This document shows positions 2,131-16,416 of a DNA stretch of 21,072 bases, piece after piece. Both the position numbers and the translations under genes were made by a program. Where the stretch lies: the IMG/VR virus record IMGVR_UViG_3300006927_000103, positions 1 through 21,072 of that record; one strand, 5' to 3'. Numbering within the stretch: the first letter of the stretch is position 1; each line of letters opens with the position of its first letter. The notes beneath the pieces were generated by a model, which was given only the letters and a program-made list of their open reading frames with translations, ran no database searches and was not told the DNA's origin. Origin of the DNA: a virus.

Positions 2131-2381
2131 TATTGAAATTCATGATAATAGTCCTGCATTGTTTCTATTAAATATCTACCACCTGCAGTATGAAAACCAT
2201 AACTATGTGTATGTAAAGATGGTATAGGTGTGTTTTCTACTAATAAGTGGAATAAATCCCATTCATTGTCGTAATCCATATCTTGACAAGTTTGTTTTAT
2301 AGCGTCTGCCATAGCGTGAGCGTCGTGTCTACATTCTCCGTATTCTGTTGCTAAATATGTTGATATTTCAGTTGCTGTCAT
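2130..2381 (-). CDS. Small hypothetical protein, 83 aa
   Basis: This 83-residue acidic protein is rich in His and Tyr (HDAHAMADAI at 19-28, HTHSYGFHTAGGRY at 57-70) and ends in MQDYYHEFQ. The His cluster could bind metal, but no standard motif is complete. It overlaps the upstream HTH gene by 14 nt and the downstream 52-residue gene by one base, so the three are translated together. I do not recognise a family. Confidence 0.75.
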   Translation of the reverse strand: MTATEISTYLATEYGECRHDAHAMADAIKQTCQDMDYDNEWDLFHLLVENTPIPSLHTHSYGFHTAGGRYLIETMQDYYHEFQ

Positions 2382-2613
2382 AATTTATAAATTTATATTC
2401 TGAATAGTTAACACTATTACCAAATCGGTTTTTATTTGTTTTCATATTAGTTTCTATATCATAACCGTTTTCACGAAGGTCGTATATAACTGATGATAAT
2501 CTAGTTACACCATACTCTTTAATTGCTTCCCATGATGTAATAGTTTTGTTTTTATCAAGATGCCATAACACAGCTTCTCGTTGATTTGTTGGATTTTCTA
2601 CTAATTTTGTCAT
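2368..2613 (-). CDS. Small winged-helix / helix-turn-helix protein
   Basis: The 81 residues follow the pattern of phage HTH_39-like domains: NQREAVLWHLDKNKTITSWEAI (10-31), then GVTRLSSVIYDLRENGYDIET (35-55) as the recognition helix and wing. This family has the signature of a leading helix, ITSxEAI, and RLSxxIxxLRxxGYxI. Such proteins probably bind DNA. Here it could regulate early genes or assist replication, but no target is visible. The gene follows a 113-nt structured intergenic segment and overlaps the next gene by 14 nt. Confidence 0.75.
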   Translation of the reverse strand: MTKLVENPTNQREAVLWHLDKNKTITSWEAIKEYGVTRLSSVIYDLRENGYDIETNMKTNKNRFGNSVNYSEYKFINYDSN

Positions 2614-2635
2614 ATAATTATTTTTAGAATAATAA

Positions 2636-2720
2636 GGAGAGAGTTAAGTTTACGTCTGAGAGGCTCAAGAATTAACCTGACCTTTGTTCTTCCTCTGTAC
2701 AGTGTTTGCTTTCTCTCTCC
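2636..2720 (-). ncRNA. Candidate structured RNA or leader element
   Basis: On the minus strand the segment starts GGAGAGAG and ends CUCUCUCC, an 8-bp closing stem. Inside are AGAGG/CCUCU and AAGAA/UUCUU, separated only by a GAG bulge, plus an outer CUG/CAG pair. It lies between the stop at 2727 and the HTH gene start at 2613, and a promoter-like box sits directly upstream (2728-2748). A T-run after the element is weak (CCTTATTATT), so it may be a leader of the HTH gene rather than a free RNA. A 16-codon frame (MERESKHCTEEEQRSG) begins at the same point and is an alternative. Confidence 0.4.
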
Positions 2721-2726
2721 ATACTA

Positions 2727-2918
2727 TTATTGATTAATATATTTAATTGCTTCATCTAAATCTTCAAACCTTTTATGTTTAATAAATACATAAGGAATGA
2801 ATTTCTTGTATACATAGAATATATCTCTCTCAGATTTTATGTAATACTTTGATTTATACAAAGAAGTAGTTATGTCAATACTTAGAAAACATCTTAATAC
2901 TCTTCTAATTACCTTCAT
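2727..2918 (-). CDS. Small basic hypothetical protein, 63 aa
   Basis: This is a 63-residue basic protein rich in Lys, Tyr and Ile (CFLSIDITTSLYKSKYYIK, then FEDLDEAIKYINQ at the C-terminus). Its start overlaps the end of the DUF932 gene by 14 nt, typical of coupled phage genes. The short C-terminal helix FEDLDEAIKYI resembles the ends of small phage proteins that wrap onto a partner, but no family is recognised. Its last codons also contain the promoter-like box at 2728-2748. Confidence 0.65.
   Translation of the reverse strand: MKVIRRVLRCFLSIDITTSLYKSKYYIKSERDIFYVYKKFIPYVFIKHKRFEDLDEAIKYINQ
2728..2748 (-). promoter_or_regulatory. Candidate promoter box inside the end of the 63-aa gene
   Basis: The minus strand reads ATATTAATCAATA here, nearly identical to CTATTAATCAATA before the gene at 8722. 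It ends 11 nt before the GGAGAGAG that opens the structured element. Confidence 0.4.
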
Positions 2919-3786
2919 TGACTAACCATTTAAATGCATTATCATTCATTTTCTGACCTGAGCCAGTATACACAGATTCTTCTCTACCATTTTCTCTATT
3001 AGGTATAGATTTACTATGAGATGTATACTTAGTTACACCATTAAACAATCCCCATTTGTTGCGTCCAACTCTATTGAGTTCGCTTTCTACACAAAGTTGA
3101 AGGTCGTCTCTGATGTTTAACTTTCTAGTACTACAGTTGTCAGGCCATCCTTCTAGTGTAGAGTCTATACCTGTCATATAATCTATAAATCTAAGGATTT
3201 CACTATGATACGTAGGATTCATACTCATCTCTTGTAGCTGAGCAATTCTTTCTTCCTGTCCATCAAAGTTAAGAATTTCTGGTAGATTATCTACTTTGTC
3301 TTGAATAGATTGTTTATGAACATATCCTTTAAGTCCATTATTACTCATCCAAGCAAATTGATTTTGACAAAATACCACTTGATTCATAAATCCAAACTTT
3401 AAAGCTGATGTACCATCATGAGAGTTGATAGCATATACATATTGTTTAGTCTCTTGACCACCTATATCTACTGTGTTATCAGGTTTCTGCATTTGTACTA
3501 ATATCTTTCTACCACCATTAATTGGAACAGCTTTAGTAATTATTAAATCATTATTACCTGCTATTGATTGCATAGTATCTATTATTGTAGAGTTCTGTGT
3601 AGGAGTATATCCTTCTTTAACTGTAGTAAATACTTCTCCAGTATCTTCACGAACTATACCGTAGTAATCCGTGTGATGTAATCCATTGTTAGCACTAGGA
3701 GTACATTCGCCTGCATACATTAATCTTTCTTTGGTTACATTCCAATTAAGTCCGTTTTCATTAAGAATTTGTTCTGTTGATTTCAT
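2905..3786 (-). CDS. DUF932 family phage/plasmid-like protein
   Basis: This 293-residue protein has the layout of the DUF932 (TIGR03299-like) family: an N-terminal strand-rich part (LNWNVTKERLMYAG, 13-26), DYYGIVREDTGEVFTTV (40-56), GYTPTQN (59-65), then FGFMNQVVFCQNQFAW and a helical C-terminal half ending in NRENGREESVYTGSGQKMN. Members are common in phages and plasmids and their biochemical function is not established; some authors suggest a link to DNA metabolism or anti-restriction, which I cannot test here. It is the largest gene of the operon, 2 nt after the upstream stop at 3788, and is slightly short for the family. Confidence 0.85.
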   Translation of the reverse strand: MKSTEQILNENGLNWNVTKERLMYAGECTPSANNGLHHTDYYGIVREDTGEVFTTVKEGYTPTQNSTIIDTMQSIAGNNDLIITKAVPINGGRKILVQMQKPDNTVDIGGQETKQYVYAINSHDGTSALKFGFMNQVVFCQNQFAWMSNNGLKGYVHKQSIQDKVDNLPEILNFDGQEERIAQLQEMSMNPTYHSEILRFIDYMTGIDSTLEGWPDNCSTRKLNIRDDLQLCVESELNRVGRNKWGLFNGVTKYTSHSKSIPNRENGREESVYTGSGQKMNDNAFKWLVNEGN

Positions 3787-3787
3787 A

Positions 3788-3976
3788 TTATTTATAATTT
3801 TTATTTACCCATATTAAAAAGTCTTCCATCATATTGTGTTCGTCTAGGTATTCTAAACACATGGTTAATTCTACATCTTCTTCAGTGAAGTCTGGTTCAT
3901 CTTCATCATGTTCTCTTGGGTCGTCGCCATAAGTTGAATGAGTTCCTTTTATCCAATCTTCTTCATTAATCATCAT
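3788..3976 (-). CDS. Small acidic hypothetical protein, 62 aa
   Basis: This 62-residue protein is very acidic (DDPREHDEDEPDFTEEDVE at 18-36). Its C-terminal helix contains CLEYLDEHNMMEDFLIWVNKNY. The first two codons are both ATG; the start at 3976 overlaps the upstream gene by 11 nt. The extreme acidity is reminiscent of small phage proteins that mimic DNA or block host enzymes, but that is only a possibility. No family is recognised. Confidence 0.7.
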   Translation of the reverse strand: MMINEEDWIKGTHSTYGDDPREHDEDEPDFTEEDVELTMCLEYLDEHNMMEDFLIWVNKNYK

Positions 3977-4316
3977 CAGTAGGATTCTCTTCGTTCTCTA
4001 TCACTCTAAAATCTTTATCAATATGTCTGATAATATCATCACATAACTCTCCTTGTGATTGAAAGTTTAATCTATCTAAATCAACTCTTCTATCATAGTC
4101 CATACTAAGTTCATAATCAAAGTCATCTTGACTAAATTCAGTATTATCTATAGCTTCTCTAATAGTATCTTGTAGAAGTTCATAGATATTTTCACTCATA
4201 GTAGGTTTGCCTATAACTCCTAACTCATGTTGAGCGGTTGATAATTCATTGTTTAACTCTTGGAGTTTTGCTTCTAATCCATTTATTTGTGCTTCTAAGG
4301 TTTCTTTACTTTTCAT
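3966..4316 (-). CDS. Hypothetical coiled-coil protein, 116 aa
   Basis: I place the start at the ATG at 4316, giving MKSKETLEAQINGLEAKLQ. The longer frame from 4349 adds an 11-residue tail that lies entirely inside the 57-residue gene upstream. The chosen start overlaps that gene's stop by 11 nt, like the other junctions of this operon. Residues 4-38 form a heptad-rich coiled coil (LEAQINGLEAKLQELNNEL). The rest is acidic (DDFDYELSMDYDRRVDLDRL) and ends ENPTDDD. It is probably an oligomeric accessory protein of unknown role. Confidence 0.75.
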   Translation of the reverse strand: MKSKETLEAQINGLEAKLQELNNELSTAQHELGVIGKPTMSENIYELLQDTIREAIDNTEFSQDDFDYELSMDYDRRVDLDRLNFQSQGELCDDIIRHIDKDFRVIENEENPTDDD

Positions 4317-4479
4317 TTTTAATAATTTTATTATACATACAGTAATCAAACAGTATTTCTGTTTCTTTAATTAACTGTTCTATAGTTAATTGTTCATAAG
4401 GTGAGTTCAAGGTGGCGACTATCTGCGCACACCTTGCTCTTATGTCTGATTTTAGTTTTAACTCTTCAGTTATAATCAT
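4306..4479 (-). CDS. Small hypothetical protein, 57 aa
   Basis: This hand-read frame begins MIITEELKLKSDIRARCAQI and ends CMYNKIIKNEK. Its ATG overlaps the TGA of the 121-residue gene (ATGA, 4476-4479) and its stop overlaps the next gene's start by 11 nt, so it fits the operon exactly. It also explains the false N-terminal extension of the next gene. The product is helical, with no membrane segment or known family. Confidence 0.8.
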   Translation of the reverse strand: MIITEELKLKSDIRARCAQIVATLNSPYEQLTIEQLIKETEILFDYCMYNKIIKNEK

Positions 4480-4841
4480 ACATTATATTTTTCAATTAAG
4501 GATTGAAACTGCTCTTGTTTAGGAGCTTTGTTTTTATGCCTATTATTCCATTTTTCTATTACTTTATAATATCTTTTGATATACTTTCTTCTAGCAGTTT
4601 TATACCAAGAGTTCACTGCTTTTATTTCTGTCATTAATGCATTGTAAGAAGAGAATTTCTTTATATCTCCATTAATAAATTTGATTGTTAATTCTCTTTT
4701 ATCTGTAGAACTAATTATACAGTGTTGGTTTGCGTTTCTGAATGAGGCATGAGCCACATCATAAGAAGTAATCTTTTTCATTCGTAATAGTGTTTTCAAT
4801 TTTTTGATGTAATCATCAGATAATTCCAATTGCTTATTCAT
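4476..4841 (-). CDS. Hypothetical basic protein, 121 aa; first gene of the DUF932 operon
   Basis: This 121-residue basic protein has an N-terminal helix (LELSDDYIKKLKTLLRMK), a central strand-rich part containing RELTIKFINGDIKKFSSY, and a strongly basic helical stretch (WYKTARRKYIKRYYKVIEKWNNRHKNK, about 79-105), then a Gln-rich tail. Nucleic acid binding is plausible from the charge, but no motif is recognised. It opens the operon that runs to 1076; a promoter-like box lies 16 nt before its start (4856-4879). The next gene overlaps by four bases (ATGA). Confidence 0.75.
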   Translation of the reverse strand: MNKQLELSDDYIKKLKTLLRMKKITSYDVAHASFRNANQHCIISSTDKRELTIKFINGDIKKFSSYNALMTEIKAVNSWYKTARRKYIKRYYKVIEKWNNRHKNKAPKQEQFQSLIEKYNV

Positions 4842-4855
4842 AAATATACATTTAA

Positions 4856-4879
4856 GGGGTTAATAATGTATATGAAATG
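4856..4879 (-). promoter_or_regulatory. Candidate promoter box for the DUF932 operon
   Basis: The minus strand reads TATACATTATTAACCCC, matching the shared box (TTACATATAATTATTAACC at 7612), 16 nt before the ATG at 4841 and after a structured, T-run-ending intergenic segment. Confidence 0.5.
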
Positions 4880-5060
4880 AAAAGACGAAAGGAGGAACGA
4901 CGCTTCGCAAGCAAAAGAGAGCGTTAACCGATAGGCGCGTTAATACTATCCTATGTTGCATATGACGCTCTTTAAACGATAATACTCTCTCTTATTAATT
5001 GATTAGTGGCTTCTCGGACGCTACCGCTTCACTTAGTTTATTTATAGGCGTCAAATCAAT
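4880..5060 (-). other. Structured intergenic segment, possible small RNA with terminator
   Basis: No gene is seen in 4842-5064. On the minus strand, AAGAGCGT (about 4972-4965) pairs with ACGCTCTCTTTT (ending about 4914), enclosing GATAG/CTATC. The distal stem is followed by a short T-run and a CGAAGCG repeat. Further upstream GACGC/GCGTC (around 5047 and 5021) form another stem around a GAAGCGGTAGC segment. The layout (closing stem, inner hairpin, T-run, CGAAG repeat, box) parallels the candidate RNA at 7671-7742, but the 5' end has no clear box. Confidence 0.35.
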
Positions 5061-5064
5061 ATTA

Positions 5065-5442
5065 TTATGCAGTAACTTTGTTCTCTACTACTCTACTCTC
5101 TTTCTCAAAGTCTTCACTGAATACATCATCAGCTAAAGATTGAGCATCCTTATGCCAGTATTCATCTAACACTGGAACATGAGAACGATTTTCTTTACTT
5201 GATGGTATAAACTTGATGTTAACCCAAGAGTTGCCATCTTTACTTACTCTCTTATTGTTTCTAAGGAAGTCAATAAAGTCTGGTAATTTGATACCGATAT
5301 TTAATACAGTTGTACCAGTCTTATAGGTATGGTCTGTAATAAACATGTTAGGAACTAATGTAGATTGTGCCTTAGTAGTTTCTGCTTCTACTGTCTTTGC
5401 TACTGTCTTAGTAGCTTTCTTTGTTGTTTTAGCTTTTGCCAT
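5065..5442 (-). CDS. Hypothetical protein with Lys/Thr/Ala-rich N-terminus, 125 aa
   Basis: The N-terminus is low-complexity and basic (MAKAKTTKKATKTVAKT, 1-17). It is followed by a folded-looking part (about 28-110) with TTVLNIGIKLPDFIDFLRNN and SWVNIKFIPSSKE, and an acidic C-terminal tail (DDVFSEDFEKESR). A basic tail on a small beta-rich body is common in phage DNA-binding or accessory proteins, but no family is recognised. It stands alone between a terminator (5476-5498) with a promoter-like box (5456-5475) upstream and a structured non-coding segment downstream, so it is a single-gene cassette. Confidence 0.75.
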   Translation of the reverse strand: MAKAKTTKKATKTVAKTVEAETTKAQSTLVPNMFITDHTYKTGTTVLNIGIKLPDFIDFLRNNKRVSKDGNSWVNIKFIPSSKENRSHVPVLDEYWHKDAQSLADDVFSEDFEKESRVVENKVTA

Positions 5443-5455
5443 TTTATAATATTTT

Positions 5456-5475
5456 AATTAATACTTATGTATAAC
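5456..5475 (-). promoter_or_regulatory. Candidate promoter box before the 125-aa gene
   Basis: The minus strand reads GTTATACATAAGTATTAATT, 13 nt before the ATG at 5442 and directly after the terminator T-run. It is nearly identical to the box at 6007-6024. Confidence 0.55.
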
Positions 5476-5498
5476 AAAAAAAGAACCCAAAGGGTTCT
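5476..5498 (-). terminator. Rho-independent terminator after the 102-aa gene
   Basis: AGAACCC (5482-5488), AAA loop, GGGTTCT (5492-5498): a perfect 7-bp stem followed on the minus strand by a run of seven T. It begins 1 nt after the stop codon at 5500-5502. Confidence 0.92.
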
Positions 5499-5499
5499 C

Positions 5500-5808
5500 T
5501 TAATAATATTCTTCATAACAATAACAATGTGTTGTGGGTGGACATCCACAATCTCCTGTCCAAAGAAACCCCATTTCTCTATCCCATTCTTCAGAGGCTA
5601 ATTCTCCTTGAAATGGATTATGATTAGGGTCTTTCATTTCCCTTATCATTCTTTCTCTAGTAGTTTCTTCAGATTTAATACTATCGTTATGGTCTTCTAT
5701 TTTTCTCAATAGTAGTTTAAGACAATTCTTAGCATGACTTTCAGTCATATCATCTATATGAATTTTCTCGCCTGTAGCTGTTGTCCAAATATAATTATAT
5801 TCTTTCAT
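5500..5808 (-). CDS. Small phage protein with Cys/His-rich C-terminus, 102 aa
   Basis: The N-terminal half, WTTATGEKIHIDDMTESHAKNC (8-29), follows a pattern seen in many small phage proteins (WTT-x2-G-x-x-I-x-I-x-DM-x3-H). The C-terminus carries DCGCPPTTHCYCYEEYY, with four Cys and one His within about 12 residues, which could hold a metal ion. The middle is charged and helical. Function is unknown. The start is 6 nt from the stop of the 58-residue gene upstream, so the two form a pair between two terminators. Confidence 0.8.
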   Translation of the reverse strand: MKEYNYIWTTATGEKIHIDDMTESHAKNCLKLLLRKIEDHNDSIKSEETTRERMIREMKDPNHNPFQGELASEEWDREMGFLWTGDCGCPPTTHCYCYEEYY

Positions 5809-8922: not shown

Positions 8923-9177
8923 ATGTCTAAAAAAACATATAAAAAAGGTCCAGCAGTTAATCTACCTAAGTTTGATTCAGAGGGAAATATTATTAAAACA
9001 ATAAAAACGGAATCACAAAAAAAGGCAGAAAAAATAATGGATGAGGAAATTCAGAAAAAACTTAAAGGACAATTTAAGAAATATAAGGAAAAAGGGGGTT
9101 TTAAAAAAGGGGGTTATAAAAATGGAGGTAAATTAAAAAATAGATATCCAGGAGGAGGTAGACACCAACACGATTAA
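8923..9177 (+). CDS. Small basic protein with Gly-Gly motifs, 84 aa
   Basis: This 84-residue, strongly basic protein has an N-terminal region (MSKKTYKKGPAVNLPKFD), a charged helix (about 30-55) and a C-terminal tail of FKKGGYKNGGKLKNRYPGGG. The tail repeats the same FKKGG / YxxGG motif found in the 1112-residue protein at 10061 and in the 64-residue protein at 9864. It is first in the plus-strand block, after the promoter element at 8888, and has an A-rich leader. A virion or DNA-associated role is likely from charge and neighbours, but no family is recognised. Confidence 0.75.
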   Translation: MSKKTYKKGPAVNLPKFDSEGNIIKTIKTESQKKAEKIMDEEIQKKLKGQFKKYKEKGGFKKGGYKNGGKLKNRYPGGGRHQHD

Positions 9178-9185
9178 TTATAAGT

Positions 9186-9842
9186 ATGCCAATAAATCCT
9201 TATTCACTCAACACTATTATACCAGGAGGAGAACCAAATGGAGGATTAACTCTTGGAGGGACTAGTTTAGCATATGATATGTTAAATGAAAATCTTCTAA
9301 CTGCAGCTAATATTAATTTAATGAGAGGCAATTTAGATATAGGAGCAGAATATAGTGGTCTTCATAGTACTGAAAGAGATAGTCATGGTGTGTTAGTGGG
9401 AAATCCTTCAAGGAGTTTTTTAGGGGCTACTGGTGGACTTAATTTTGGAACATATGCTGGGTCACGTAAAGGAGATTGGGAAAATAGATTTATGGGAATA
9501 TTGAGTGGTAAACTAGGATATGGAGGAGCTGGCACAGGGCTTGATAGATATAACCTAGAGCCTCTTCAGGAATCAGATAAGGGGTTAGCGTATTCTGGAA
9601 GATTAGATTTAAAATCTGGAAGACCTGGAAGAACTTATTGCGTAGGAAGCTATTGTAGCGCTGCTCCAGTTCCATCTAGAAGTATTGGTCTTTTTGGAGA
9701 ATACGGAAATCCATATTCTCTTAATCCAGGACTAAGAGTGGGAGCTGAAGGACATTTTAGATTTCTTTCTGGAGGAGGTGGATATGATTTTGAATCTCAA
9801 TCTCCGTTTATAAATGCGGGATTACGAGTACCTATAAGATAA
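9186..9842 (+). CDS. Beta-barrel-like protein, 218 aa
   Basis: This 218-residue Gly/Tyr/Leu-rich protein has repeated short strands of alternating polarity (LRVGAEGHFRFL, GLFGEYG, LSGKLGYGG, NLDIGAEYSGL) separated by polar turns, and ends FINAGLRVPIR. The pattern resembles bacterial outer-membrane beta-barrels. It is also similar in style and ending to residues 60-256 of the protein at 10061 (GGFGLNIPLG). There is no signal peptide, so it is probably assembled into the virion rather than exported. The N-terminus carries PGGEPNGGLTLGG. A disulfide pair is possible in CVGSYCSAA (about 157-164). Function is inferred, not recognised. Confidence 0.7.
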   Translation: MPINPYSLNTIIPGGEPNGGLTLGGTSLAYDMLNENLLTAANINLMRGNLDIGAEYSGLHSTERDSHGVLVGNPSRSFLGATGGLNFGTYAGSRKGDWENRFMGILSGKLGYGGAGTGLDRYNLEPLQESDKGLAYSGRLDLKSGRPGRTYCVGSYCSAAPVPSRSIGLFGEYGNPYSLNPGLRVGAEGHFRFLSGGGGYDFESQSPFINAGLRVPIR

Positions 9843-10060: not shown

Positions 10061-13000
10061 ATGGGATATAAAGATATGATGAGAATGATTGGGAACTTTA
10101 AACATGTTCCTGCAGTTATTGCAAATTCCGCACCTAAACAAGAATATAATAAATATGATAACGGAGGAACTTTAGATGAGACTGACCCATTTTGGCCATA
10201 TCAACAAACAAATTATTTTAATCCTTCTCTTAGTACGGGATGGTCTCCTTTTCACTTTGGTGACAATTTTGCGACAGGACTTTCAGGTTCTCTTAATTAC
10301 ACTTATCCACTTTTCTCATCGCGATATTCTACTCCAGAAGGTCAAGATAGATTTGATTTTGGACCAAGTCTTACAATGAGTGGTCTGATGGGACAAGAAG
10401 AAGATGCTTATACTTCTACTTGGCAAGGGGAACCTTATACATCAGATGAATCTTTCTGGAATAAAAGAACAAATATTGGGCTTAATGCTGCTTATCAATC
10501 TCTTATAGGTAATAAAGGATTAGTAGCTGGAGGAGAATTAGAAGGTGGTATTGGATTTGGAACAAACACAACACATGGTCCATATGGATTTGAAGAAACT
10601 CCTGTAGGAGGTAGTTATGCTTCAGGTCAATTTGGATTAGGATATTATCCTGAAGACTCTCCTTATAACGCTAGAGCTGTTTTAGGATATGGAACTGAAT
10701 TAGCTCCCGCTCATCGCCCTGGAGGATATTTTGGGTTATATGGAGGATTAGGTCCTGTTGAATTAGGAATAATTAAAGATAAACAAGGGTGGTCAGGAGG
10801 ATTTGGTTTAAATATTCCTTTAGGAAGTAGAAGACCAGAAGTTATACCTGAAGGAATATATGACAATGGAGGAATTATGCCTGTAGAAGGAGGAATGGGA
10901 AGTATTTCTTCTTCTTCATTTTCAGAAGCTGCTGATATAAAAAATAGAGGAGGAGGTCAATACAAAGGACTAACTCCATATAATATGGATGTTTCATTTG
11001 AACATGATTTAATTACATCTAATATAGGTTCTTTTAAGAAGGGAGGTAAAATATTGTATGATGAAGGAGGAATTGAAGATGTAACAGCGGCTGTCGCAGG
11101 AACCACTGAAGACCCAGGAGCAGAGACATTACTATTAGACGAATCTAGTAATTTAATGGGAGACATAAATCCTCATGTTTCTGATGAGAATTGGACTAGT
11201 TATTATAATCAATTAAAAATAAGTGAAAACGCAGCAAATAAAGGATATGATAAAGAAAAAGATTTATGGTTTCCTTTTGACGTAAGTGATGCAGAACGAA
11301 ATATTGGATGGGGAATTAATATGAGTACTTTTAGTAAAGAAGAACGAGAAAGAATATCAAAAGGTATAACTACTGTTGAGCTGGAACAGATGTATTCAGA
11401 TAGAATTGCTAATCATTTAAATAAAACTCAAGATTATATAGATACATGGCAAGGAGATTGGACAAGAGATGATAAAAGTGGTAATACTGGATATAAAGGT
11501 AAGGAAGGTAATTGGAATAAGTTGCCTGATAATCTTAAATTAGCTTTAACTGATTTTTCATATAATTTAGGTGGATTAGAAAAGTTTCCTAAATTTGTAA
11601 CAGCTGTTATGAATAATGATTTAGAAGGAGCTAAAGCAGAATATAAAAGATATTGGAAAAATAAGGGAGTGAAAACAGAATTAACAAAAAGAAATGAAGA
11701 GATTTATAAAATGATATTTGAAAACGCTAAAGGTGATGGTAAAATTTATAGAAAAGGAGGTTCATTCGCAGTCTATACTAAAGGAGGTTTATTTGACACT
11801 GGAGGTACAGTAGACGAAACAGACCCATCAAATAAAACAGAAGTTGTCTTAAATTATTCTCAATCATATGGTTCTAGGAGAAGAGGAGCTTTTCCTAGGA
11901 TGGTAAATGAAGACTCTGGTGAAAATCCTAATTTAAATCTTAGTGAAAATGCATATCTAGCATTATGTATGGCTCAATATTATGGATATACAGGAGAAAT
12001 AGAAATGACTAGTGGACAAAGAGGAGGTAAAGACCAAACAAGAGTATATAGTAAATATCAAAGAAATGACGCTCATGTATATAGAAGATTTCCTCAATAT
12101 CAACAAGCAATAGCGGATTCTTTAGGAGTTTCTTTACATGATTATAAAACTAATAATGTATCTGATGAACAATGGAAAAATCAAGATACAGAGGCGATTA
12201 GTGGTTGGATTGATGATATTTGGGCAAAAGTACAGTCTGAAGAAATGACTATGGATGAAGCTAATAAATTATATCCTATGCATCACATGACAGGAGATGC
12301 GGGTGATTTCACTGGAGATTTTAGACAATGGTTACAAAGCAGTAAAAGTAAAGAGTTTAGAGAAAATTTTAATATAAGCGTGTTAAATGAACGCGACCAT
12401 TTTCATGTAACTTTTGGAGAAAATGTAAATGTACCAGAAGAACATAAAATGGAATATGTAAATCATAAAGACCAATTTAATAGTCTTTCTATAGATAGTG
12501 AAGATGTAGTAGGTACTAAAGTTATAAATATGAATCCTTCTACTTATCAAGGAGAGCAACGTAATTTATTATATGGTCCCTATTTTCAACCAATAAAGAT
12601 TGAGTCTCAAGATGTCACATTAACAAGTGGTGTTGAACCTCCTGCTACATTAAAAAAAGCAACTCTACCTCCAGGATATAAAGAATACCAACAATATCGT
12701 TCTGAAATGAAAGATAAAGAAGAAAAAACTCTTGGATATAGAATACATAGCTCTTTAGAAAGTATGGATACATATACTACTCCAAAGCATCTTAAAGCTT
12801 TATCATTTGATGAATGGTTAAATGAAAATCCTGAATTTAAAGAAGTTCCAAAGGAGGATATAGATAAAGGAGAATCAAAAGAAAACGTGTCTGTAGTTCC
12901 AGGAGACCATGGAGTTCCTTTTCCAGGTTCGGTTGAAGATAAAATTGTAGAAGAACCTGACCATATAGAGACTATTATGAAAAAAACAGGTAAGACAAGA

Positions 13001-13399
13001 GAAGAAGTTATATCAATATTAGAATCAACTAGAGAGAAAACGCTTGAAGAACGAAATGATTTATGGAGGGGAAGATATTATAAGCCTGAAAAACCTTTCT
13101 CTCCAGATGATTTCCCTTGGAAGCCTGAAAAACTTTTCTCTCCAGATGCTTGGCCTACGCCATTTCCATTGCCTAATCCTGAGCAGCGTGGATATCCAGA
13201 TGATTTCTGGCCTAACCCAGTACCAAGAAAGCCTACACCTGGACCTTGGGAAACATTACCAGCCCCTCTCGCTCCACCAGCAGAAGTTAATCCATATCAA
13301 TTATTACAAAGACAACAAAACTTAAAAACATCTTATGATATAAATAGTCATATTGGTAATATAAAAAACATGATTAATAATTGGAAATCAAATAAATAA
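10061..13399 (+). CDS. Multi-domain virion lytic protein: barrel-like domain + GH24-type lysozyme + M15-type peptidase
   Basis: In the 1112 residues I see: a barrel-like, Gly/Tyr-rich region (about 55-256, ending GGFGLNIPLG); a GH24 lysozyme-like domain (about 380-553) with likely catalytic E389, an NIGWGIN segment where GH24 has TIGxGH, and ALTDFSYNLGG plus a C-terminal LTKRNEE helix; and an M15 zinc D,D-peptidase-like domain (about 628-795) with H742-xx-G-x-A-x-D749 and E777-xx-H780-x-H782. The C-terminus (1008-1075) is Pro/Trp-rich. Aromatic/basic-x-x-GG motifs (NKYDNGG 30-36, IYDNGG 266-271, FKKGG 325-329, YRKGG 563-567, FDTGG 578-582) lie at the domain junctions. The protein would cut both glycan and peptide in peptidoglycan. 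Predicted catalytic Thr/Asn variation in the lysozyme makes activity uncertain. Confidence 0.8.
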   Translation: MGYKDMMRMIGNFKHVPAVIANSAPKQEYNKYDNGGTLDETDPFWPYQQTNYFNPSLSTGWSPFHFGDNFATGLSGSLNYTYPLFSSRYSTPEGQDRFDFGPSLTMSGLMGQEEDAYTSTWQGEPYTSDESFWNKRTNIGLNAAYQSLIGNKGLVAGGELEGGIGFGTNTTHGPYGFEETPVGGSYASGQFGLGYYPEDSPYNARAVLGYGTELAPAHRPGGYFGLYGGLGPVELGIIKDKQGWSGGFGLNIPLGSRRPEVIPEGIYDNGGIMPVEGGMGSISSSSFSEAADIKNRGGGQYKGLTPYNMDVSFEHDLITSNIGSFKKGGKILYDEGGIEDVTAAVAGTTEDPGAETLLLDESSNLMGDINPHVSDENWTSYYNQLKISENAANKGYDKEKDLWFPFDVSDAERNIGWGINMSTFSKEERERISKGITTVELEQMYSDRIANHLNKTQDYIDTWQGDWTRDDKSGNTGYKGKEGNWNKLPDNLKLALTDFSYNLGGLEKFPKFVTAVMNNDLEGAKAEYKRYWKNKGVKTELTKRNEEIYKMIFENAKGDGKIYRKGGSFAVYTKGGLFDTGGTVDETDPSNKTEVVLNYSQSYGSRRRGAFPRMVNEDSGENPNLNLSENAYLALCMAQYYGYTGEIEMTSGQRGGKDQTRVYSKYQRNDAHVYRRFPQYQQAIADSLGVSLHDYKTNNVSDEQWKNQDTEAISGWIDDIWAKVQSEEMTMDEANKLYPMHHMTGDAGDFTGDFRQWLQSSKSKEFRENFNISVLNERDHFHVTFGENVNVPEEHKMEYVNHKDQFNSLSIDSEDVVGTKVINMNPSTYQGEQRNLLYGPYFQPIKIESQDVTLTSGVEPPATLKKATLPPGYKEYQQYRSEMKDKEEKTLGYRIHSSLESMDTYTTPKHLKALSFDEWLNENPEFKEVPKEDIDKGESKENVSVVPGDHGVPFPGSVEDKIVEEPDHIETIMKKTGKTREEVISILESTREKTLEERNDLWRGRYYKPEKPFSPDDFPWKPEKLFSPDAWPTPFPLPNPEQRGYPDDFWPNPVPRKPTPGPWETLPAPLAPPAEVNPYQLLQRQQNLKTSYDINSHIGNIKNMINNWKSNK

Positions 13400-14316: not shown

Positions 14317-14606
14317 TGAAGAAAAGTATTAGAAAGCCTATTGAATTAAAAAATAAACCTATTAAGATAAACTCATCAGGAAGAACTGAAGAAATTAAGA
14401 AAAAAAATAATCTTACTTATTTAAAACAAAGATATTCTTATCATTATAAAAAAGGAAACTGGGAAAGAGCAAATGAATATAGTGAATACTCTATTCAAAA
14501 TTATCAAATGGATTTGAAAGAATGGATGGAAAATAAAGAATTAAGTAAAATGAATAATAAAAATATATTTGGATTTGACAATCCTAAAAAATTAAAATAT
14601 GGGTAA
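14316..14606 (+). CDS. Small basic hypothetical protein, 96 aa
   Basis: This 96-residue, Lys/Asn-rich protein has a disordered-looking N-terminus (MKKSIRKPIELKNKPIK) and a helical middle (TYLKQRYSYHYKKGNWERANEYSEYSIQNY, 39-68). Its end overlaps the terminase start by 8 nt. The basic charge suggests nucleic acid or terminase contact, but this is inference. No family is recognised. Confidence 0.7.
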   Translation: MKKSIRKPIELKNKPIKINSSGRTEEIKKKNNLTYLKQRYSYHYKKGNWERANEYSEYSIQNYQMDLKEWMENKELSKMNNKNIFGFDNPKKLKYG

Positions 14607-16416
14607 GATAAAATTTGACCCACAAAGATATAGACCAATACCCAATAAAGGATTTCCTGATTTAGAAGAAGGTTCTGTAGCATATCAAGAATGGTGGACA
14701 GAACAACAAGAAAGATGTGTTAATGGATTTAAACCTAAAGGTATGCCTAAGATTTCTGGTAAGTATTATTTTTATCTAAATTTTTATTTTATTTTAGGAA
14801 ATGATGGTTCAAAAGGTGGTCGTAAATCTTTAATACATCCATGGTATAGAGAAATGGATAGAGAATATTTTAATCTATTTGAAACATGTAAAGATGAAGG
14901 AAAAGGAATGATTGTTATTAAAGCAAGGGACAAAGGGTTCTCTTATATGAACTCTGGTATGGTTGCTCATGAATATACATTTTTTCCGTACAACGATATA
15001 GGTGTAGCAGCAGGATTACAAGCTACTGCTGACGCGTTCTTTGATAAAACAAAAAAGGGACTTAATGGTATACATCCAAATTTTAAACATTCTGTATTAA
15101 AAGACACTCAAACTATTATGAGGTCTGGATATAAACAAAAGAATAGAGATGGTAAATGGGAGACAGGAGGATATCAATCTACAATTATATGTAGAACAAT
15201 GGATAATCCAGAAGTGTTTAAAGGTGAAAGAACTTCATTAATGGTATTTGAAGAAGCTGGAGAATTTAAACATTTAAAAAATGCGTATATGTCTTCTAAA
15301 GCATGTTTTATGGATGGTAATATACAATTTGGAGTTCCTATTATTGGAGGTACAGGTGGTGATATTAGCGCTTCATCAAAAGACTTTATGGACATGTATT
15401 ATAGTTATGACGCGTATAATCTTATACCTATGTTTATTCCTGCCTCAAAAGCTTATTATGGATTTTTTGATATAGAAACAGGAGTAGAAGATGTTAAAGG
15501 AGCTGAAGAAAGTTTATCTGAAGAAAGAGAAGTTATTAGAAAGTCTGGAGATAATGAAGCTTATAACTTACATATACAAAATTATCCATTAACTATAGAA
15601 GAAGCATTTTTAAATACAAAACAAAGTAGATTTGATATTGCTTTGTTAAATGCTCAAAGAAGTAGAATACTATCAAGTAAAGATTACAAGAATCAAATAC
15701 AGTCTGGATATTTAGATTGGGCGTTAAATGATGATGATGAATTAAAGGTTTTATGGAGACCTCATCCTACTGGACCATTTAAAGTTTTATCTCATCCGAT
15801 GCCAGAATATCAAGGAATTGATATAGGAGGAGTGGATTCTTATGACCAAGATGAAGCAGGAGCGTCAGATTCTTTGGGAAGTGCAATAATTTATCGTAGA
15901 TTTGCAAATACAAATATTCCAAGCGATTACGTTGTAGCTGAATATACTGACAGACCTAAGAAAAAAGAAGATTTTTGGGATGGGTGTTTGAAGTTAGCTG
16001 TGTATTATAATGCTAAGATGTTGGTAGAATATACAAAGATAGGTATTTTGGATTATTTTAAACGTATGAATGCTTTAAAATATTTGAAAGAAAAACCAGA
16101 GTCTGCTCATAATCCAGGTTCTAGAACAAGAAATCAATATGGTGTTCATATGAATAAACAAGTGAAAGCTTTATTGGAAGATTTGATAGATGATTATATT
16201 AGAGAAAATATTAAAGAAATTTGGTTTTTAAGTTTAATAGATGAATTAGCTAATTATGGATTACAAAATACAGACCGAGCTATGGCTTTTGGTATATGTT
16301 TGATTCATAATATAGATAATTACAGAATGAGAGTTCAGGAAAAAGAAGAAACAATAGATATAGGTCTTAAATATTATACAAGAGGTTTAAATGGAACACC
16401 AATAAAATTAAATTAA
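14599..16416 (+). CDS. terL: Terminase large subunit (packaging ATPase and nuclease)
   Basis: This 605-residue protein packages DNA into the prohead and cuts it. The ATPase half has the deviant Walker A KARDKGFS (108-115), typical of terminases, Walker B LMVFEEA (214-220) with catalytic E219, and the coupling motif GGTGG (250-254). The C-terminal RNase H-like nuclease has GIDIGG with D408, further acidic residues in DSYDQDEAG, E477 in MLVEYTK and D559 in NTDRAMAFG, which fit the expected acidic triad. The length is normal. It is followed after 1 nt by the portal gene, the standard phage order. Confidence 0.93.
   Translation: MGKIKFDPQRYRPIPNKGFPDLEEGSVAYQEWWTEQQERCVNGFKPKGMPKISGKYYFYLNFYFILGNDGSKGGRKSLIHPWYREMDREYFNLFETCKDEGKGMIVIKARDKGFSYMNSGMVAHEYTFFPYNDIGVAAGLQATADAFFDKTKKGLNGIHPNFKHSVLKDTQTIMRSGYKQKNRDGKWETGGYQSTIICRTMDNPEVFKGERTSLMVFEEAGEFKHLKNAYMSSKACFMDGNIQFGVPIIGGTGGDISASSKDFMDMYYSYDAYNLIPMFIPASKAYYGFFDIETGVEDVKGAEESLSEEREVIRKSGDNEAYNLHIQNYPLTIEEAFLNTKQSRFDIALLNAQRSRILSSKDYKNQIQSGYLDWALNDDDELKVLWRPHPTGPFKVLSHPMPEYQGIDIGGVDSYDQDEAGASDSLGSAIIYRRFANTNIPSDYVVAEYTDRPKKKEDFWDGCLKLAVYYNAKMLVEYTKIGILDYFKRMNALKYLKEKPESAHNPGSRTRNQYGVHMNKQVKALLEDLIDDYIRENIKEIWFLSLIDELANYGLQNTDRAMAFGICLIHNIDNYRMRVQEKEETIDIGLKYYTRGLNGTPIKLN

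Follow-up and report, generated by a model that had tools for sequence, protein, structure and literature searches.

Upstream of terL, a 21,072-nucleotide stretch of viral DNA (IMG/VR record IMGVR_UViG_3300006927_000103, positions 1 to 21,072; hereafter the window) carries one long gene whose product, a protein of 1112 amino acids (aa), joins a beta-rich module, a lysozyme-fold domain and an M15-type zinc peptidase domain in a single chain. We consider it probable that this 1112-aa protein is a modular cargo (ejection) protein which opens peptidoglycan during the entry of a marine crassvirus. The window itself, judged by its crassvirus-type capsid, terminase and portal, belongs to a marine crAss-like phage. 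Two kinds of comparison carry this proposal: relatives of the same modules are found in genes that follow the muzzle gene, and the content of the gene upstream of terL is exchanged among close relatives. The parts of the gene are as follows.

10061..13399, + strand: modular protein, 1112 aa, with an ATG start and free of internal stops
10061..10135, + strand: conserved N-terminal segment MGYKDMMRMIGNFKHVPAVIAN, aa 1-25, retained whichever modules come after (alignment A1)
10172..10846, + strand: beta-rich (barrel-like) module A, aa 38-262, with YDNGG on both sides (aa 32 and aa 267)
11168..11740, + strand: lysozyme-fold (GH24-like) domain, aa 370-560, from VIA-align, hhalign and the homologue in contig L102
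11225-11227, + strand: E389, catalytic Glu position of the lysozyme-fold domain
11279-11281, + strand: D407 of the lysozyme-fold domain
11300-11302, + strand: N414, at the GH24 Thr position of the lysozyme-fold domain
11747..11806, + strand: linker cluster YRKGG, YTKGG, FDTGG, aa 563-582, from motif counts against shuffles
11873..12550, + strand: M15-type zinc peptidase domain, aa 605-830, from its zinc ligands and model
12284-12286, + strand: H742, zinc site
12305-12307, + strand: D749, zinc site
12389-12391, + strand: E777, the Glu upstream of HxH
12398-12400, + strand: H780, zinc site
12404-12406, + strand: H782, zinc site
12578..13396, + strand: proline-rich C-terminal tail with a short helix at its end (IKNMINNWKSNK), mostly a low-confidence model

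An earlier note on this DNA had described a single chain in which a beta-rich module precedes two distinct cell-wall hydrolases, and this architecture stands: the reading frame is intact, and a second IMG/VR contig, L002, holds the same fusion at 99% identity. Since that contig is independent, a chimera of assembly is disfavoured. The whole protein found no match among GenBank phages, its model gave no significant match in Foldseek, and a PDB sequence search with either the whole protein or the M15 profile returned chance matches only.

The M15 zinc pattern (H742..D749, E777, H780, H782) was found exactly where the earlier note had placed its residues. HxxGxAxD...ExxHxH arose in none of 20,000 shuffles of the 1112-aa protein, and the five residues, together with SGxR, are unchanged across six aligned sequences. 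The domain is also the best-modelled part of the protein (AlphaFold pLDDT mostly 80-90), and rows 9-31 of the VIA-align comparison are M15 peptidases (1lbu, VanXY, VanY) and Hedgehog relatives, with Z values of 3.5-4.2. These Z values are not decisive in themselves; because an independent zinc motif joins them, we take the domain assignment as sound. The domain resembles known M15 peptidases (the zinc DD-peptidase 1lbu, VanX/VanY) in its zinc pattern, its SGxR and its structural rows, and differs from them in matching no Pfam family and in the 87 residues that separate SGQR from the first His ligand, a longer spacing than is usual for M15. Searched alone against GenBank phages, it gave no match.

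In the lysozyme-fold domain, the residues listed earlier (E389, FSYNLG at 499 and TKRNEE at 542) are all in place, and the suspicion that Asn occupies the GH24 Thr position was borne out: N414 is Asn in 4/4 sequences, so that the lysozyme site is altered. PF00959 scored 14.5 bits in the window (cut-off 22.3), 23.1 in the homologue L009 and 42.2 in the relative L018, while hhalign joined the window-type domain to canonical GH24 relatives (L018/L016 type) with 97.9% probability, laying Asn414 on the canonical Thr and Asp407 beside the canonical Asp. T4 lysozyme, whose catalytic Asp and Thr are D20 and T26, heads the VIA-align rows (Z 6.2, a value under 8; rmsd 3.5 over 119 residues; model pLDDT ~50-66) with pesticin close behind, and the weak best matches of the A3 profile among PDB sequences were a lysozyme and gp5. 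Compared with T4 lysozyme and gp5-type tail lysozymes (GH24), the fold match and the Glu (kept in 4/4) are points of likeness; the differences are an Asn where the catalytic Thr would be and an Asp that not every relative has kept (present in 3/4, Ser in L102). We label the domain 'GH24-like' rather than GH24 on account of these two changes. They also favour a reading, compatible with a cargo role, in which the lysozyme-fold half is dead or serves for binding only and M15 alone is catalytic. This is possible but unlikely, given that the Glu is invariant, that a pN/pS of 0.30-0.45 indicates purifying selection on the domain and that some lysozyme-fold lytic transglycosylases require Glu only.

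The main new result is that these modules come back in genes that follow the crassvirus muzzle gene. In phi-crAss001, the muzzle gene gp44 is followed by the cargo genes gp45 and gp46, and gp45 lies partly inside the tail and is expected to be the first protein ejected (PMC10172136). A search with the Asn-type lysozyme found contig L102, in which the 433-aa C-terminus of a muzzle-type protein, ending in NKFNIFALRPKYRKSHR as does the 2001-aa gene of the relative G001, is followed by a 210-aa gene, an 802-aa gene and a gene with an M15-like start. The 802-aa protein consists of module A, a Gly-rich stretch, an Asn-lysozyme (68.6% identical to that of the window, E=3e-93) and a cargo-type C-terminus homologous to the C-terminus of the muzzle-adjacent protein of G001 (E=1e-5). 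Module A as a query led to L110, an 82-kb contig in which a crAss_MUZ muzzle (E=2.9e-51) is directly followed by a 794-aa module A protein and then by a 1269-aa protein that combines a barrel-like stretch with a GH24-type domain, the latter 43% identical to that of L018 (E=8e-46). The Gly-rich stretch, of the membrane-hairpin kind, occurs in proteins of both L102 and L110. Other modules recur likewise. The SLT of L017 is found again in a 522-aa cargo-position protein of L094 (45%, E=1e-38), and a helical module of the upstream genes of L040, L032 and L058 in the cargo-position protein of L132 (E=5e-29 with L040, E=4e-36 with L058); in L064, which is L132's own phage, the upstream gene is short and most of the helical module is missing. 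From these matches, several independent types of module are common to the gene upstream of terL and to the genes after the muzzle.

The second gene after the muzzle, large and in cargo position, likewise has a start that is exchanged among relatives: it is M15-like in G001, L126 and L127, GH19-like in L129 (PF00182 E=0.0026, below the cut-off) and a phage tail lysozyme in L095 (PF18013 E=1.4e-16). The series of these genes in L126, L127, L129, L123, L125 and G001 also includes a lysozyme-like domain of no assigned type, and a MORN repeat (PF02493 E=2e-6) is present at aa 750-769 of a crassvirus cargo-position protein of L110 (8124-11933).

Upstream of terL, we compared relatives at the same place whose TerL is 89-95% identical to that of the window. 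They share the N-terminal segment (52-61 bits in ten distinct family members, the next best protein scoring 10.9), a GYQGLTPY...FKKGG segment and often the C-terminal MINPY, and differ in their middles. The Asn-type lysozyme is found in the window, L009, L005 and L007; a canonical GH24 in L016 and L018; an SLT in L011 (Pfam E=1e-8), L017 (2e-11) and L085; and a weakly supported pesticin-like domain (PF16754 E=0.083, plus a motif) in L004, L006, L008 and L012. M15 is present in the window, L008, L009, L011, L012, L017 and L085 and absent from L004, L005, L016 and L018, so that L004 and L008 differ in its presence. DNA identity between L004 and L005 is 96.9% for the 3.4 kb downstream and reaches 84-94% for the N-terminal part, and between these flanks their glycosidase DNA is without detectable similarity; on this alignment the pair represents a clean cassette exchange. 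As read from these genes, close relatives have constant protein ends and variable interiors, in which the glycosidase type, the M15 domain and the beta-rich module change; the window's arrangement is one state within this cassette system. The pesticin-like cassette was also tried as a diverged Asn-lysozyme and rejected (hhalign probability 0.3%).

Borders between modules in the family proteins are marked by [YF]xxGG motifs, of which the 1112-aa protein has 8, against a mean of 1.0 and a maximum of 5 in 1000 shuffles. The longer form [YF]xxGG[KTSMIL][FYLMIV] lies at aa 32, 267, 325, 333, 563, 572 and 578, and is also present in the window's open reading frame (ORF) 8923-9177 and in L032, L034, L040, L053, L058, L069 and L021; in sister phages a motif of the [YF]xxGG type also ends glycine-rich proteins at their C-termini. 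It could be a protease site (of the GG-cleaving type), a packaging tag or a recombination-friendly linker. At the other end of the protein, the tail past aa 840 is modelled with pLDDT mostly <50 except in short helices, and its terminal MINPY-type motif is retained in relatives. The window and L002 differ here in a local block at aa 843-853 (YFQPIKIESQ versus SLKDLPV) despite their 99% identity elsewhere, which may point to gene conversion or to selection acting on the tail.

Two other genes at this locus call for mention. In L040, L060, L071, L075 and L032 the product of the gene upstream of terL is unrelated and begins DKGGTPQQYNQLMDYIAYHETG...GRGLFMFE; it has no Pfam match and has the look of a further lysozyme or transglycosylase type. 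In L022, a 1062-aa protein with Lcl_C domains (2350-5538; PF07603 E=1e-9), perhaps a surface-binding protein, is inserted upstream of terL.

Besides module A, in front of the two enzymes, a second beta-rich protein is encoded by a separate gene nearby:

9186..9842, + strand: free-standing beta-rich (barrel-like) protein, 218 aa, from its L102 homologue and its amphipathicity

Homologues of module A are found in the 802-aa protein of L102 (E=1e-20) and in the 794-aa protein of L110, and the 218-aa protein matches the 210-aa protein of L102 (BLASTP E=9e-18). A relationship between module A and the 218-aa protein was not borne out (hhalign 2.3%). We scored two-residue hydrophobic alternation in the phage modules alongside ~110 proteins of E. 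coli K-12; among 124, module A ranks 18 and the 218-aa protein 16, and all six beta-rich modules score among OmpA, OmpW, FadL, OmpT, OmpX and PagP, whereas TerL, portal, capsid and enzyme domains fall outside the range of outer-membrane proteins. E. coli fimbrial proteins score as high as outer-membrane barrels, and for this reason the test indicates amphipathic beta structure and is no proof of a membrane barrel. The beta-rich modules had no match in Pfam, PHROGs or GenBank phages, and at the sensitivity of the scan no bacterial homologue of either was found in species genomes. The 'barrel-like repeats' of the earlier note are thus beta-rich, with an outer-membrane-like pattern of strands; they form one conserved module, a putative barrel. 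Both module A and the free-standing protein could be genuine barrels of the outer-membrane type that travel in the virion, enter the outer membrane from outside and are fused or linked to wall-opening enzymes, a proposal we make tentatively and regard as doubtful. Elsewhere in G001 (reverse-complement 45878-46912), a 344-aa protein appears to have a signal peptide and shows strands patterned like those of outer-membrane proteins; it is possibly an outer-membrane protein produced during infection.

An entry role had been suggested earlier from the domains. It gains from the recurrence of the modules directly after the muzzle gene, at the site of the injected cargo of phi-crAss001; the outer-membrane character suggested for the N-terminus along with it stays hypothetical. 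Several points weigh against a cargo protein. The putative virion location of the 1112-aa protein is drawn from homology and gene position, and the muzzle-adjacent proteins are linked to phi-crAss001 gp45 by gene position and the Gly-rich stretch. Pfam and PHROG scans of the muzzle-adjacent relatives gave no cargo family, and L102 is one contig of 5.5 kb. The N-terminal segment was tried as a feature shared with a muzzle-adjacent cargo-type protein and rejected, its score of -7.8 being within the shuffled range. Fold matches of both enzyme domains are modest (Z 4-6), Pfam recognised nothing in the M15 domain, and AlphaFold pLDDT is ~20-31 across module A (31 for module A alone, as a single sequence), a failure we attribute to its having too few homologues.

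The protein might instead be an endolysin, made late, released by a holin and breaking the wall at the end of infection. It has two muralytic domains and a late-gene neighbourhood, endolysin families are among the PHROG matches of relatives, and domain shuffling is common in endolysins. Nevertheless we hold this to be distinctly improbable: in G001, the only relative that we read through, holin and endolysin form a pair of their own elsewhere (reverse-complement 49397-50403; a holin, PHROG 3427, E=1e-31, then an endolysin-like protein, PHROG 33083, E=5e-13), the modules recur within muzzle-adjacent proteins, and a conserved beta-rich module with a long Pro-rich tail would be unusual in an endolysin. 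The endolysin-like protein of G001 has an SxGC-type motif, and it is this motif that resembles L,D-transpeptidases. The window, at 21 kb, is too short for a lysis pair of its own to be seen. Least probable of all is a structural or tail-decorating protein, such as part of a fibre, whose beta-rich module binds the cell surface while the hydrolases act locally at contact; its Gly/Asn/Thr-rich composition and a beta-rich module whose score matches both fimbrial proteins and outer-membrane barrels would suit such a protein, but L102 and L110 have the module in the post-muzzle cargo position, together with a Gly-rich stretch of the membrane-hairpin kind.

As a cargo protein, the 1112-aa protein would be packaged in the virion and exit through the tail. 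In the periplasm the lysozyme-fold domain would cut glycan, probably by a Glu-driven mechanism, which we propose because the Thr position is Asn, and the M15 domain would cut stem peptides, opening a local hole for the passage of DNA. Least certain is the place of the beta-rich module, which, with the separate 218-aa protein, may lie in or across the outer membrane.

Modular lysins are common. Two-domain virion hydrolases are already known from HydH5 of Staphylococcus phage phiIPLA88, a virion-associated protein with CHAP and LYZ2 (PMC3150257). The 1112-aa protein resembles HydH5 in uniting an amidase/peptidase-type and a lysozyme domain in one chain, virion association being a feature of HydH5; the latter differs in its Gram-positive host, in its enzyme families and in having no beta-rich module. 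Among crassviruses, the likeness to cargo C1 (gp45) and C2 (gp46) of phi-crAss001 (PMC10172136) consists in the relatives of the window modules directly after the muzzle and in the Gly-rich membrane-type stretch of L102 and L110; the difference is that the proteins described here contain hydrolase and beta-rich modules and that the window copy is upstream of terL. The text of the phi-crAss001 structure paper makes no mention of peptidoglycan or lysozyme (PMC10172136). In T7, gp14 forms a helical channel as the outer-membrane pore and gp16 has an N-terminal transglycosylase (PMC8954989); the proposed division into an outer-membrane pore and peptidoglycan cutting by injected proteins is the same, but T7 keeps its two functions on separate chains, and the window protein carries a beta-rich module and two enzymes on one. 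The pore of DEV, gp73, is likewise helical (PMC10925440). Should the beta-rich modules be barrels, pore and drill would travel as one exchangeable phage-borne kit, of beta-barrels unlike the helical T7 gp14 and DEV gp73; we offer this as a speculation with the odds against it, which if true would make the module a new type of phage entry pore. What is new in the present case is that it concerns a crassvirus, that modules are exchanged between two places in the genome, that the lysozyme site has an Asn form and that it is tied to a beta-rich module not described before. Taken together, the genes offer a natural set of phages that are almost identical apart from an exchanged wall-cutting enzyme; this enzyme also changes place between the muzzle-adjacent genes and the one upstream of terL. 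Hence the enzymology of entry, and its match to the chemistry of the host wall, become testable.

The affiliation of the source phage comes from a Pfam scan of the 21-kb window, in which the capsid gene matches the crassvirus capsid family Crass_capsid (PF23898, E=1.7e-21), and from TerL and portal, which match PHROG families. TerL is ~30% identical to those of gut crAss phages and still further from that of Cellulophaga phi14:2; closer TerL proteins occur in hundreds of IMG/VR contigs, the best 80 being 79-100% identical to that of the window. Two further features belong to this neighbourhood.

14599..16416, + strand: terL (PHROG 6681, E=3.6e-96), the anchor gene for finding relatives
8923..9177, + strand: 84-aa ORF whose tail carries xxGG repeats (KGGFKKGGYKNGGKL), the first of three neighbouring genes, its motif read directly

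Pfam and PHROG scans gave no match for the 84-aa ORF. Between the 1112-aa gene and terL lie three small ORFs.

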